NCBI RefSeq assembly: GCF_009738225.1
Contig: NZ_CP018187.1
Coordinates: 196,501 to 260,500 of the forward strand
Source: Streptococcus salivarius
GTDB lineage: Bacteria; Bacillota; Bacilli; Lactobacillales; Streptococcaceae
Direction of reading: 5' to 3'
DNA length: 64,000 nucleotides
The translations under genes and the position numbers were made by a program. Shown in pieces: positions 15,343 to 51,792 of the stretch (positions within the stretch are counted from its first letter, which is position 1; each line of letters begins with the position of its first letter). The notes below the pieces were generated by a model. The model was not told where the DNA came from. It did not search any database and saw only the letters and a list, made by a program, of their open reading frames with translations.

Positions 15343-17208
<1,866 letters not shown>

Positions 17209-17214
17209 GATTAA

Positions 17215-17252
17215 AAAATCTTTTCTTGCTGGAGCAGGAAGAGATTTTTCTT
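17215..17252 (+). terminator. Terminator of proS
   Basis: AATCTTTTCTTGCT pairs with AGCAGGAAGAGATT (two G-T pairs) across a tight loop, followed by T-rich sequence. Confidence 0.85.
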
Positions 17253-17298
17253 TTGCAGTGATAATGATAAATTGAGAGAAAAGATAGTAAATTCCAAT

Positions 17299-17327
17299 TT
17301 GACAGAATTGTCTAAATAGTGTAAACT
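17299..17327 (+). promoter_or_regulatory. Promoter of the transporter leader RNA
   Basis: TTGACA at 17299-17304 and TAAACT at 17322-17327 have a 17-bp spacer. It would start a leader of about 480 bases before the fused transporter gene. Confidence 0.6.
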
Positions 17328-17356
17328 TAAAACTATCATAACTACGGAGGCATCAC

Positions 17357-17422
17357 ATGCTTAATAAAGCGACCCATTTGGGAAGTCTTAAAGCTTTTTA
17401 TTACTTTAGTTTCTTTAGATAG
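17357..17422 (+). CDS. Phe/Tyr-rich leader peptide (21 residues)
   Basis: An ATG at 17357 with GGAGG six bases upstream opens a 21-codon frame ending in TAG. Its tail reads AFYYFSFFR: four Phe and two Tyr in seven consecutive residues. A promoter lies just upstream and an intrinsic terminator about 135 bases downstream, before the transporter genes. This layout resembles amino acid attenuation leaders such as pheL or pheM of enteric bacteria. The codon run 17404-17413 can pair with 17468-17477. The role in attenuation is inference; no family match is claimed. Confidence 0.6.
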   Translation: MLNKATHLGSLKAFYYFSFFR

Positions 17423-17588
17423 GACGTTTGTGTTTCAGGATACAAGCGTCAGTCAGTTTGTATCTATGAAGCTAAAGCATTTTGTGATGGATTAGCCGAT
17501 TAGATGAATAGGTCTAACCGGTGACATAAGCTAGCCTGTGCTAGTTAAAATGCAGAAAACCAGTTGGGCCTGTCCTAACTGGTTTTTT
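17404..17588 (+). promoter_or_regulatory. Candidate attenuator with alternative hairpins
   Basis: Visible pairings are: codon run CTTTAGTTTC (17404-17413) with GAAGCTAAAG (17468-17477); GACGTTTGT (17423-17431) with ACAAGCGTC (17442-17450); GATACAA (17439-17445) with TTGTATC (17458-17464), which shares bases with the previous hairpin and so excludes it; and CTAGC/GCTAG (17531-17544). An intrinsic terminator ends the region. The order fits a ribosome-position switch, but no folding was computed. Confidence 0.5.
17558..17588 (+). terminator. Intrinsic terminator inside the transporter leader
   Basis: AACCAGTTGGG (17558-17568) pairs with CCTAACTGGTT (17574-17584), an 11-bp stem with one G-T pair, followed by six T residues. 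It lies 225 bases before the transporter start and would stop leader transcription by default. Confidence 0.88.
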
Positions 17589-17613
17589 CATACCGTGGTC
17601 TATTTTTAGTTTT

Positions 17614-17769
17614 CTTTTGACCTTTAGATGTCTAAAAAATGGTGAATTCTAGCCAACTTTTATAAGGTCAAAAGGTGATGGTCTTTGGACGACGGACTTT
17701 AGGATCTGATGAAGCGATGTAAGGTCTAATTTGCTTGCTTTTGACCCTATCGTCTCGGAAAAAGCATAA
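17614..17769 (+). promoter_or_regulatory. Second leader element with three related arms and a possible promoter
   Basis: CTTTTGACCTT (17614-17624) and AAGGTCAAAAG (17664-17674) are perfect 11-base complements. GCTTTTGACC at 17737-17746 is a third arm that can also pair with the middle one. TTGACC at 17741-17746 with CATAAA at 17764-17769 (17-bp spacer) could serve as a separate promoter for the transporter genes. No ribosomal start is visible here. Confidence 0.4.
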
Positions 17770-17813
17770 AAGAAAATTGGAAATAGATAGAATAAAAAAT
17801 AGAGGTATACAAG

Positions 17814-19754
17814 ATGAAGAAATTCTTGGTCAGTATGATGGCTGTTATCACAGCTGTCCTCTTGGTAGCATGTTCCAATGCTTCTAATAAAGACTTGGTT
17901 CACGTCGGTGTGCTCCAATATGTGGAACATCCTTCCTTGTCAGCGACACGTAAAGGGTTCATTGAAGAACTCAAAGAGGAAGGTTATGTTGACGGTAAGA
18001 ACATCAAAATTGATTATCAGAATGCACAAGGGGATCAGTCTAACTTGCAGACGATTTCTCAGTCGCTTATTGAAGATAACGATCTTATGTTGGCTATCGC
18101 AACCCCAGCAGCTCAGTCTTTGAGTAGTTTGACAAAGGACAAGCCAATTCTCTTTACAGCTGTCACAGATCCAGTCTCAGCTAAACTGGTTAAGTCTATG
18201 GACAATGTTGGAGGAAATGTGACGGGAACAAGTGACATGTCACCTATCAACAAACAAGTTGAGTTGTTGAAAAAGGTCCTTCCAAATACTAAAAAAGTTG
18301 GGATTATGTACACGACCAGCGAGCGTAACTCAGAGGTTCAGGTTGAAGAAGCCAAGAAATACTTCAAGGAAGCTGGTATTGAAACGGTTATTAAGGGAAT
18401 TTCATCAACCAACGATATCCAAGACACAGCCAAAAGTTTGATGAGTCAGACCCAAGTCATCTTCATCCCAACTGACAATACTATTGTTAGTGCTATTAAT
18501 ACCTTGGTAGATCTTTCTAAAGAGACTAAGGTTCCAGTTGTTGGTAGTGACGCTGGTAGTGTGGAAAAAGGTGTCCTATTCACTTATGGAACCAACTATG
18601 AAGCGCTTGGTCGTCAAACAGGTAAGTTGGCAGGCCGTGTTCTCCGAGGTGAGAAGGTCAAGGATGTCGATGCAGAGTATCCTAAAACACTAAATGTTGT
18701 GGTTAACCATGACATGGCTAAAGAACTTGGCATTGATGTTTCTAGTATTAGTGACGAGGAATCTAAGGCATCAACACAAGATGACAAACCGATTGCCAAA
18801 AAAGATAAGGGTGTCATTAAGCTTAAGGTTAATAAGTCATCTAAGAATGGTTTTTCAAATGTGGTGCTGACAGCTATTTCTCAGGGACTTCTCTGGGCAA
18901 TTATGGCTATTGGGGTCTTCATTACCTTCCGTATTTTGGACCTTGCTGATTTGACAGCTGAGGGGGCCTTCCCACTTGGTGCTGCTACGACAACTATCAT
19001 GATTATCCGTGGAATCAACCCAATCTTTGCGACTCTAGGTGGTTTTGTGGCTGGTATGCTTGCTGGAGCTGTGTCTGGTTTTATGCATACGAAAATGAAG
19101 ATACCAGCACTTTTAACAGGGATTATTACCTTAACGGGGCTCTATTCCGTTAACCTTTTGGTTCTTGGAAGTGCCAATGTCTCTCTATCGGGACATAATA
19201 CGCTAGTAACTATGGTGATGGGACTCGGTTTGTCTAAGCTGAATGGTGTGATTCTATTAGGACTGATTTTTGTTAGTCTGGTAGTGCTTATGTTGGTTGT
19301 TCTCCTTAATACGCAGGTTGGTCTGGCCCTTCGTGCGACAGGTGATAACCTTGCCATGGGTGAAGCCAATGGTATCAAGGTTGACCGTATGAAGATTCTT
19401 GGCTACATGATTTCCAATGGTTTGATTGCCCTATCAGGTGCCCTCCTAGCTCAAAACAATGGCTATGCGGATATGAATATGGGTACTGGTACAATCGTAA
19501 ATGGCTTGGCTGCAATTATCTTGGCTGAAGTTATCGTCAAGTATCTACCACTTGGTAAACGCCTGTGGTCAATTGTTGTAGGAGCTGTTCTTTACCGTCT
19601 GGTCTTGGTTATTATCCTTGCCATGAACGTTGATGCTCAAATGTTGAAATTGGCTTCAGCCATCTTGCTTGCCGTCATCCTATATGTACCAGAAGTACGA
19701 CAAAAATTGAAAATCAAACCTAACAAATCCTTGACTTTAGGAGGTGACAAGTAA
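17814..19754 (+). CDS. Fused substrate-binding lipoprotein and ABC permease, probable aromatic amino acid importer
   Basis: A 646-residue two-domain protein. Residues 1-20 are a lipoprotein signal ending LLVAC, with Cys20 as the lipidated residue. About 27-310 is a TrpX-like ABC substrate-binding domain. A Lys/Asp-rich linker (about 310-340) leads to a permease domain (about 343-632) with the hydrophobic helices of the branched-chain/ribose permease type. Related binding proteins bind Trp or Phe. The two parts are usually separate genes; here one frame is continuous with no stop. The ATPase gene overlaps its stop by one base. Confidence 0.8.
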   Translation: MKKFLVSMMAVITAVLLVACSNASNKDLVHVGVLQYVEHPSLSATRKGFIEELKEEGYVDGKNIKIDYQNAQGDQSNLQTISQSLIEDNDLMLAIATPAAQSLSSLTKDKPILFTAVTDPVSAKLVKSMDNVGGNVTGTSDMSPINKQVELLKKVLPNTKKVGIMYTTSERNSEVQVEEAKKYFKEAGIETVIKGISSTNDIQDTAKSLMSQTQVIFIPTDNTIVSAINTLVDLSKETKVPVVGSDAGSVEKGVLFTYGTNYEALGRQTGKLAGRVLRGEKVKDVDAEYPKTLNVVVNHDMAKELGIDVSSISDEESKASTQDDKPIAKKDKGVIKLKVNKSSKNGFSNVVLTAISQGLLWAIMAIGVFITFRILDLADLTAEGAFPLGAATTTIMIIRGINPIFATLGGFVAGMLAGAVSGFMHTKMKIPALLTGIITLTGLYSVNLLVLGSANVSLSGHNTLVTMVMGLGLSKLNGVILLGLIFVSLVVLMLVVLLNTQVGLALRATGDNLAMGEANGIKVDRMKILGYMISNGLIALSGALLAQNNGYADMNMGTGTIVNGLAAIILAEVIVKYLPLGKRLWSIVVGAVLYRLVLVIILAMNVDAQMLKLASAILLAVILYVPEVRQKLKIKPNKSLTLGGDK

Positions 19755-20557
19755 TGGCTTTACTTAGTTTACAACAGATTCACAAGACCTTTGAAAAAGG
19801 CACAGTCAATGAAAATCACGTCCTTCGTGGTTTGGATCTCGACATTGAGCAGGGAGACTTTATCTCTGTTATTGGAGGAAATGGTGCTGGTAAATCAACC
19901 TTGATGAATTCAATCGCTGGTGTTCTTAGCATTGATGAAGGGGATATCTTGTTGGAGGGACAATCTATTAAGAAAGCATCTGTAGATGAGCGTTCTAAAG
20001 ATATTAGCCGTGTTTTCCAAGATCCTCGAATGGGGACAGCGACAAACCTTTCTATTGAAGAAAATATGGCGATTGCCTATCGTCGAGGTAAGAAACGTAG
20101 CTTCTTTAAAAAGTCTATTACTGAGAGCGAACGTCAAGTGTTCAAGGAAGCCTTGATAGATCTTGGTCTTGGGCTTGAAAATCGTATGAAGACCGATGCT
20201 AATTTCTTGTCAGGTGGACAACGTCAGGCCTTGACACTTGCTATGGCGACCTTGGTTCGTCCAAAGATTTTGCTTTTAGATGAACATACAGCTGCGCTAG
20301 ATCCTAAGACAAGTGACATGGTTATGAATTTGACGCGTAAGATTGTTGAAGAACAAGAGTTGACAACTCTTATGATTACCCATAATATGGAACATGCTAT
20401 CGAATATGGGAACCGTCTGGTCATGCTCTATCATGGTAAAATCGTCGTCGATGTGCGAGGTGAGGAAAAGAAAAATCTCACTGTTGCAGAACTTATGGAT
20501 CTCTTCCACAAAAATAGTGGACAAGTCCTCAATGACGATGCCTTGGTACTCGGTTAA
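19754..20557 (+). CDS. ABC transporter ATP-binding protein, partner of the fused permease
   Basis: A 267-residue ATPase with Walker A GGNGAGKST, signature LSGGQRQA, Walker B ILLLDEHTAALD (His where Pro is common) and H-loop MITHN. It overlaps the fused lipoprotein-permease gene by one base, so the two are translationally coupled and form one importer. Context and family point to aromatic amino acid uptake (TrpZ-like), which is inferred. A strong terminator follows. Confidence 0.85.
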   Translation: MALLSLQQIHKTFEKGTVNENHVLRGLDLDIEQGDFISVIGGNGAGKSTLMNSIAGVLSIDEGDILLEGQSIKKASVDERSKDISRVFQDPRMGTATNLSIEENMAIAYRRGKKRSFFKKSITESERQVFKEALIDLGLGLENRMKTDANFLSGGQRQALTLAMATLVRPKILLLDEHTAALDPKTSDMVMNLTRKIVEEQELTTLMITHNMEHAIEYGNRLVMLYHGKIVVDVRGEEKKNLTVAELMDLFHKNSGQVLNDDALVLG

Positions 20558-35951: not shown

Positions 35952-35957
35952 AGTCCC

Positions 35958-36067
35958 AACTAAGATAAAAACACAGTTCTGGTTGGTAGTCCAGACGTAG
36001 GCAAGCCTATCAGTAACCTTCCTCCTTGGTTGTCCATTCTTAGGGATAGATTTAAGGAGGTGCTGTC
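35958..36067 (+). ncRNA. Probable yjdF riboswitch
   Basis: The 110-base leader of a yjdF homologue is rich in short complementary segments. CCTCCTT at 36021-36027 is the perfect complement of the ribosome site AAGGAGG at 36054-36060, and CTGG/CCAG and TAGGC/GCCTA pairs lie further upstream. The yjdF RNA motif is known to sit in front of yjdF genes in Firmicutes and to sense azaaromatic compounds by controlling translation. The call comes from gene context and anti-ribosome-site pairing; a covariance search was not possible. Confidence 0.65.
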
Positions 36068-51410: not shown

Positions 51411-51792
51411 GTGCAATTTTCGGATAATCGCATGGTTGCTAGTCTTCCATGAGGAAAGTCCATGCTAGCACTGGCTGTGATGCCAGTAGTGTTTGTGCTA
51501 GGTGAATTAATAAGCCTAGGGACTTGATTTTCAAGTTACGGCGAGTGAACTGGCTAAGTCTTAGGATAGGTTTTAGTAGCTCTGAAAGTGCCACAGTGAC
51601 GGAGTTTTTAGGGAAACCTAAAAAGTGGAACGCGGTAAACCCCTCAAGCTAGCAACCCAAACTTTGGTAGGGGCATGGGATGGCTGGAAACGAACGGACC
51701 ATCCTGACTGCTTTGCAGTAGACAGATGATTATCGAAGGAAGTGGTACCTAGTCACTTCTGGAACAAAACATGGCTTATAGAAAATTGCATA
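51411..51792 (+). ncRNA. rnpB: RNase P RNA (bacterial type B)
   Basis: The ends TGCAATTTTC (51412-51421) and GAAAATTGCA (51781-51790) pair as helix P1. The conserved GAGGAAAGTCC (51451-51461) of the catalytic core follows in the right place, and the length of about 380 bases fits streptococcal RNase P RNA. It matures tRNA 5' ends with the RnpA protein. Exact ends may differ by a few bases. Confidence 0.93.

Follow-up and report, generated by a model that had tools for sequence, protein, structure and literature searches.

The window, which is the whole analysed stretch of 64,000 nt from the Streptococcus salivarius contig NZ_CP018187.1, contained a leader region in front of two ABC transporter genes. 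The following features were assigned, the numbered strands being the segments that take part in pairing (L and G numbers denote loci and genomes).

17299..17327, + strand: sigma-70-type promoter, TTGACA-17 nt-TAAACT, with 10/12 positions matching
17346..17350, + strand: Shine-Dalgarno site GGAGG for the leader peptide, read from the sequence
17357..17422, + strand: leader peptide MLNKATHLGSLKAFYYFSFFR, 21 codons, ATG at 17357 and stop TAG at 17420-17422
17396..17421, + strand: strand 0, the putative regulatory codon run FYYFSFFR and the start of the stop codon, pairing with strand 3
17423..17450, + strand: hairpin 1:2, with strand 1 at 17423-17432 and strand 2 at 17441-17450
17456..17481, + strand: strand 3, the putative switch strand GTTTGTATCTATGAAGCTAAAGCATT, from two alignments and the swap and mask tests
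17490..17506, + strand: strand 5, GATTAGCCGATTAGATG, able to pair with either strand 3 or strand 6
17511..17527, + strand: strand 6, GGTCTAACCGGTGACAT, predicted partner of strand 5 (off) or of terminator arm 7 (on)
17558..17588, + strand: intrinsic terminator, with strand 7 at 17558-17568, strand 8 at 17574-17584 and then a T run
17814..19754, + strand: regulated gene for a 646-aa fusion of an ABC substrate-binding protein (PF04392) with a permease (PF02653), predicted to take up Phe/Tyr
19754..20557, + strand: ABC transporter ATPase gene, probably of the same operon

The TTGACA/TAAACT layout was also found in the relatives L001, L002 and L046 (S. agalactiae); the promoter match alone was not beyond chance, with 9 promoter-like sites in 16000-20000 against 7.7 +/- 2.6 in shuffles. 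Strand 0 could contact strand 3 in the window through 17404-17413 with 17468-17477 and through 17416-17421 with 17461-17466, the former (CTTTAGTTTC and GAAGCTAAAG) giving ten complementary pairs, one of them G-U. As an alternative to hairpin 1:2, strand 2 (17439-17447) could pair with strand 3 (17456-17464), and the bases ACAA at 17442-17445 within strand 2 were common to both pairings. The switch-strand stretch between the first hairpin and the second (17490-17527, strands 5 and 6) was GTTTGTATCTATGAAGCTAAAG, and the GTATCTATG portion of strand 3 was near-invariant in two alignments of relatives. Energies of -9.1, -11.3 and -9.2 kcal/mol were computed in the window for 3:5, 5:6 and 6:7. The terminator stem (17558-17584) had 11 pairs and -14.4 kcal/mol, with the T run extending to 17588, and was not among the matches of a simple terminator scan of the region. 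The short RNA terminated there was predicted to be about 250 nt. The initial annotation had named the promoter with its 17-bp spacing, GGAGG with the 21-codon frame, the pairing of the codon run, the alternative hairpins that share ACAA, and the 11-bp terminator, and each of these parts was present.

The binding protein and the permease formed a single 646-aa frame in the window and were separate genes in, for example, L003 and L010. Between the terminator and the gene, about 115-125 bases at 17622-17735 were absent from the nearest genome, L001 (distance 330 vs 207), and this stretch had no second copy within the window. Rfam also placed an azaaromatic (yjdF) riboswitch at 35955-36053 (84.3 bits) and RNase P class B RNA at 51416-51783.

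Distribution of the element and its leader frame

A DNA search gave a match in 12/59 genomes, which represented three families of the order. At E up to 0.01, the covariance model R1, built on the 93-nt core, matched 109/197 genomes of the genus and 187/295 genomes of the order (Lactobacillales), in 55/74 genera. A pattern scan of named genomes revealed 103 stretches, of which 99 were also R1 matches and the others (L020, L043, L084 and L111) were dropped. Its members came from Enterococcus, Tetragenococcus, Vagococcus, Aerococcaceae, Carnobacteriaceae, Gemella and Streptococcus, with some from Clostridium, Peptostreptococcaceae and Turicibacter. At E up to 0.05, a further model that omits most of the codons (R2) matched 53/60 genomes in one of the order's families. 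The most R2 matches in a genome were nine, in G462 (9% contamination), and a few were on the opposite strand or very short. Across the phylum, in a draw with few genomes of the order, R2 matched 4/348 genomes at E up to 0.001, two of them from the genus of the window and one (G043) from its order. The fourth, L334 of G531, had no leader frame and was set aside as probably a chance match. On these counts, the element belongs mostly to Lactobacillales, and neither model is promiscuous.

The R1 set of 178 matches was reduced to 149 unique loci. The full set of 295 entries (R1, R2 and Trp loci) gave 258 unique loci after removal of 29 duplicates and of eight entries in which strand 3 was not located by script. 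Among these eight, L224, L287, L192 and L181 were probable real members, L244 (66.3 bits) had probably been put in the wrong place by the script, its flank ending at the contig end, and L218, L226 and L329 appeared to be chance matches. Weak or opposite-strand matches such as L222 and L225 were left unparsed. At 248/258 loci a same-strand gene was in view, in most cases one serving the uptake or synthesis of amino acids; the other ten had none in view. An intrinsic terminator was found in 236/258, including the window.

The leader frame was kept well beyond the streptococci. An ATG with a Shine-Dalgarno match of at least 4 nt and a stop at the expected place occurred in 255/258 unique loci, compared with 30.9 expected when the upstream letters were shuffled and the identical rule was applied. 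In nearly all of the 149 unique R1 loci, likewise, a Shine-Dalgarno site was present and the codon run stood at the end of the frame. The frame was open in register in 256/258 loci and in the other two registers in 4 and 6, a test that is partly circular because the stop was picked first. Leaders were 13 to 27 codons long in all but four loci, and for those four (9, 11, 30 and 39 codons) the starts are possibly wrong; the leaders of L305 and L010 were corrected by hand in the codon-class table. Counted from the stop, the 188 Phe/Tyr leaders had Tyr or Phe at site -6 in 184 and at site -5 in 183, and at sites -7, -3 and -2 in 151, 157 and 168, the lower counts including leaders shifted out of register by extra last residues. 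Four leaders located before binding proteins (L016, L027, L108 and L205) ended in SNFR, with Asn at a usually aromatic site.

Codon class and downstream genes

Among the 258 loci, 188 leaders were of the Phe/Tyr class, 49 of the Trp class, 20 of the branched-chain (BCAA) class and one of the His class. Endings like YYFSFFR, YYFSYFR and FYFSYFR preceded binding-protein genes, aroE and DAHP synthase; YFSYFR preceded pheA and YYFSFFR aroC. IISIIR or IIISIIIR were found ahead of ilvA (threonine deaminase), ilvE (branched-chain aminotransferase) and LivK-type binding proteins, LLISVIR ahead of ilvB (acetolactate synthase), and WQSWHR and similar endings ahead of trpB and other binding proteins. The single HHHSHS leader (L053, Gemella MAG) preceded a polar amino acid permease gene (1648-2286).

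For genes of unambiguous pathway the leader class agreed in 74/74 cases, while over 20000 permutations the mean was 40.0 and the maximum 53; the loci share ancestry, so that the independent switches are fewer than 74, and the genes fall into ten families, none of which mixes classes. These genes were aroE (42), DAHP synthase (4), pheA (4), aroC (1), aroB-like (1) and trpB (3) on the aromatic and Trp side, and LivK-type (9), ilvE (5), ilvA (3) and ilvB (2) on the branched-chain side. A Pfam scan bore out the labels of all 74 proteins, and those of representatives were also checked with NCBIfam. The two shikimate dehydrogenase domains were found at 1e-10 in 41 and 40 of the 42 aroE proteins; the others gave 9 periplasmic binding proteins, 6 PALP (3 ilvA and 3 trpB), 5 aminotransferases, 4 DAHP synthases, 4 prephenate dehydratases, 2 TPP enzymes, 1 chorismate synthase and 1 DHQ synthase.

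Transporters of ambiguous substrate were kept outside the 74; genes for which no class could clearly be expected, among them an OppA-like gene behind VVIINRIYIR and a citrate-transporter-like family behind YFSYFR, were treated likewise. At ten Clostridia loci (L023, L029, L030, L038, L040, L060, L062, L064, L076 and L083), Phe/Tyr leaders preceded carriers of the BrnQ type, whose name refers to branched-chain amino acids; these may be aromatic carriers or else an exception to the codon-gene rule. Sodium symporters of Clostridium (L065, L094 and L099; PF00209 for L065) lay behind YYYSYYR and YYFNYYR leaders and are candidate tyrosine transporters. A D-2-hydroxyacid dehydrogenase (L260, 657-1652) behind the leader FFNSNFR possibly acts on phenylpyruvate. 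In addition, an M-box riboswitch on the opposite strand (L217, 1806-1972) adjoined an Ile leader and ilvE, a protein without Pfam match at 1e-10 (L039, 4166-5323, Gemella MAG) stood behind a leader ending in YYYSAL, and in L031 a transposase-like frame lay between the leader and aroE.

The cluster containing the PF04392 binding proteins comprised 150 genes, 105 with Phe/Tyr leaders and 45 with Trp leaders, and a tree of 145 of them was built by a quick method. All 45 Trp-leader rows formed one clade (SH-aLRT 99), and the leader label changed once on the tree, against 38.6 times in shuffles. The nearest neighbour below 80% identity had the same leader class in 144/144 rows having such a neighbour. 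One row (L275) was a permease-like protein on a very long branch. The window protein fell among the Phe/Tyr rows, and the whole fusion scored 338.9 bits against NCBIfam NF041285 (TrpX), not reaching the cut-off of 390. Since it was below this cut-off and outside the Trp-leader clade, the protein, which had been described as a TrpX-like aromatic transporter, is probably a transporter of Phe/Tyr and not of Trp.

Alternative pairings and the proposed relay

In the proposed mechanism, when no ribosome is on the leader, strand 0 would pair with strand 3 and strand 5 with strand 6, and terminator 7:8 would form (off). Under shortage of Phe or Tyr, a ribosome halted at FYYFSFF would mask strand 0 while hairpin 1:2 forms; the freed strand 3 would take strand 5, and the released strand 6 would take terminator arm 7, giving readthrough (on). 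With ample amino acids the ribosome at the stop codon would cover strand 1, strand 2 would take strand 3 and the off path would be kept. The Trp, Ile/Leu/Val and His members would use the common frame with the codons exchanged. The Trp members seem to have a shorter form, in which strand 3 would act directly on the terminator arm and the 5:6 motif is mostly absent. The pairing of the codon run with strand 3, which the initial annotation had noted, would thus be one step of a longer relay.

Covariation was assessed by a swap test, in which cognate pairing energies were compared with those of partners taken from other loci. For the codon segment and distal strand 3, the 188 Phe/Tyr loci gave -6.78 for cognate partners against -5.31 for same-class and -3.01 for other-class partners. 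The BCAA loci gave -6.44 against -5.33 (p 0.053) and -4.28 (p 0.001); the Trp loci gave -5.54 against -5.05 and -5.47, neither difference being significant (p 0.12 and 0.61). Across 142 Phe/Tyr and BCAA loci, cognate 3:5, 5:6 and 6:7 pairings were stronger than swapped ones (p 9e-9, 9e-15 and 1e-20), and the control pairs 3:6, 5:7 and 3:7 were not (p 0.8, 0.37 and 1.0), although such p values overstate the case, the sequences being related and hence not independent. Short motifs, which the swapped partners have in common too, served to locate strands 5 and 6. The control 3:7, and weakly 3:6, did better than shuffled letters because strands of one kind resemble each other. Cognate 7:8 also exceeded swapped partners, in a test that is circular since 7:8 had been located by its own hairpin. 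Outside the Trp codon segment, the pairs expected of the relay thus covary and the unexpected pairs do not.

For the mask test a 31-nt ribosome footprint was blocked, the transcript was folded up to strand 5 and the 3:5 pairs were counted. In 128 Phe/Tyr loci the mean was 2.0 pairs with no ribosome, 8.6-9.1 with the A site at -8 to -4 and 3.5 with the ribosome at the stop; the stalled value exceeded that without ribosome in 105/128 and that at the stop in 100/128. The 14 BCAA loci gave 1.0, 5.5-7.6 and 1.3, respectively, with stall above none in 10/14 and above stop in 11/14.

For the window itself, a cruder earlier measure (terminator arm with anything upstream) was flat at 0.74-0.79, and the strand-specific test failed at equilibrium, with at most 1.6 pairs of 3:5 at sense codons and 4.5 at the stop; with the codons masked, 2:3 was favoured over 3:5. 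Hairpin 1:2 was then fixed first, an assumption suggested by the order of transcription. A stall at -6 gave 11.1 pairs of 3:5 (end 17508) and 8.5 of 6:7 (end 17570) in this setting, compared with 0.0 and 2.5 without ribosome, and at the intermediate end 17530 strand 5 paired with strand 6 and not with 3. A ribosome at the stop codon left 5.5 pairs of 6:7 at end 17570, which is intermediate and not a clean off state. As masking works in the window only with 1:2 fixed first, the relay there would rest on folding kinetics.

The window element is best read as a ribosome-read transcription attenuator that would sense charged tRNA-Phe and tRNA-Tyr, with a probability of about 0.88. The comparative support for this Phe/Tyr leader-peptide reading, already put forward in the initial annotation, is the leader frame kept with its start and Shine-Dalgarno site, the codon run that matches the pathway in 74/74 genes and the covarying alternative pairings. 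A simpler peptide attenuator, with 0:3 opposed to a downstream partner and no 2:3 state at the stop codon, or a relay limited to some lineages, is rather unlikely. The 5:6 motif, in keeping with it, was found in only 1/49 Trp loci, strand 3 directly matched the terminator arm in L181 and L336 when read by eye, and the stop-codon ribosome gave the intermediate result in the window. The drop of 3:5 with the ribosome at the stop in the Phe/Tyr and BCAA loci speaks against it, as this is what 2:3 predicts. The Trp leader of L336 (G043) ended in RTWQNWRR, and its strand 3 looked complementary to the CCACATAGATA terminator arm, a pairing that looks like the short form of the relay.

Known leaders and rival readings

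In enterobacteria, ribosome stalling on Phe or Trp codons of the pheL/pheM and trpL leaders decides between antiterminator and terminator. By analogy, the element would make the same stalling-based choice; it would differ in the strand relay and in a core reused for several amino acids, and the Rfam scans gave no match of the element to the pheL/pheM or trpL families. The expectation that peptide control would be unusual in low-GC Gram-positives was only partly right, since His leaders known in bacilli (PMC2965389) and, in S. aureus, an ilv attenuator peptide rich in leucine (PMC5794164) are cases of peptide attenuation in Firmicutes, as is proposed for the element. A Phe-codon uORF ahead of DAHP synthase, as in the Phe/Tyr members, also exists in uORFC-13-1, described from Acholeplasma and environmental sequences only, before aroF (PMC8632094). 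In literature searches that lay outside subscription journals and supplements, the Phe/Tyr element was nowhere called a leader peptide.

Only two Rfam families, RF02863 and RF04312, matched the element in scans of 40 related loci. The window leader region had no T-box or other family above gathering score, the best weak match being RF02863 (34.3 bits against a gathering score of 61).

Members of the family have been published as riboswitch candidates. The elements upstream of S. agalactiae gbs2033 and gbs1262 were reported as 'new riboswitches', the former also located before E. faecium aroFBC-tyrA and conserved in Lactobacillales, the latter similar to an element before F. nucleatum trpB; by RNA-seq, a single start site in each region gave rise to both a short RNA and a long transcript (PMC4448216). 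The S. agalactiae loci found here had leaders MLIKSSIIKQTNTYYYFSFFR (L003/L046) and MTKTLFTNWQNWRR (L181), and their predicted short RNAs of 284-288 and 186-190 nt compare with published ones of 270 and 195 nt (PMC4448216). From gene context and these similar lengths, gbs2033 would be L046, which carries the family element before a gene of the type seen in the window, and gbs1262 would be L181. No leader peptide was named in the section on gbs2033, and the main text of PMC4448216 had no word beginning with 'peptide'.

The trpB motif (RF04312, SRC-39-1) was presented as a strong riboswitch candidate for which its authors did not rule out an attenuator (PMC11109978). The Trp-type loci L189 and L314 were above its gathering score, and L312, L182 and L181 were below it. 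As far as the motif is described in PMC11109978, it and the Trp loci are alike in trpB and ABC transporter genes, a terminator, and an antiterminator in the right shoulder of P1. In the loci here, the motif came with WQ[SN]W-type leaders, and R2 joined it with the Phe/Tyr, BCAA and His forms.

A riboswitch that binds aromatic amino acids or their precursors, with an incidental peptide frame, would suit these reports and the near-invariant GTTTGTATCTATG in the seed alignment, but it is very improbable. The frame and its Shine-Dalgarno site persist in 255/258 loci although leader length varies, and Phe/Tyr, Trp, Ile/Leu/Val and His codons swap with gene function on one core, which a fixed binding pocket does not account for.

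Still less probable is a trans-acting small RNA in place of a cis attenuator. The Enterococcus family sRNA_2410 (RF02863) is described as a small RNA, and 5/40 scanned loci (L009, L259, L004, L023 and L221), read here as peptide attenuators, were above its gathering score; an E. faecium RNA of 195 nt was validated by northern blot, and the terms leader, attenuation, aroE and shikimate do not occur in the main text of the same paper (PMC5593968). Against this stand the same-strand genes, mostly for amino acid uptake or synthesis, in view at 248/258 loci, and a codon class that tracks the downstream gene. Taken together, the sequence comparisons suggest that the trpB motif, gbs2033, gbs1262 and sRNA_2410 members are peptide attenuators.

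T-boxes are common for such amino acid genes. A tRNA-binding T-box, under which S. suis trpX has been reported for Trp (PMC9382623), has a negligible chance of being the element, as none reached gathering score in the window or the 40 related loci and none appeared in 17200-17830 at E up to 10. Because of that S. suis report, T-box and peptide control may have replaced one another.

It is likely, though less firmly so than the assignment of the window element as a Phe/Tyr attenuator, that one frame around the near-invariant GTATCTATG serves as a codon-programmable sensor in much of Lactobacillales and some Clostridia. Codons and paired arm would be swapped together for Phe/Tyr, Trp, Ile/Leu/Val or His, the relay would be the common device, and the trpB motif, gbs2033 and gbs1262 would be included as members, so that in these bacteria the element would be to peptide control what the T-box is to tRNA binding. 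Peptide attenuation itself was already known; what would be new here is a single attenuator frame reprogrammed over several amino acids. For the open riboswitch candidates this would offer an answer through leader peptides in place of a ligand. The specificity of a regulatory RNA could be changed by codon exchange, and the leader codons would provide a rule by which substrates could be proposed for amino acid transporters that are poorly named.
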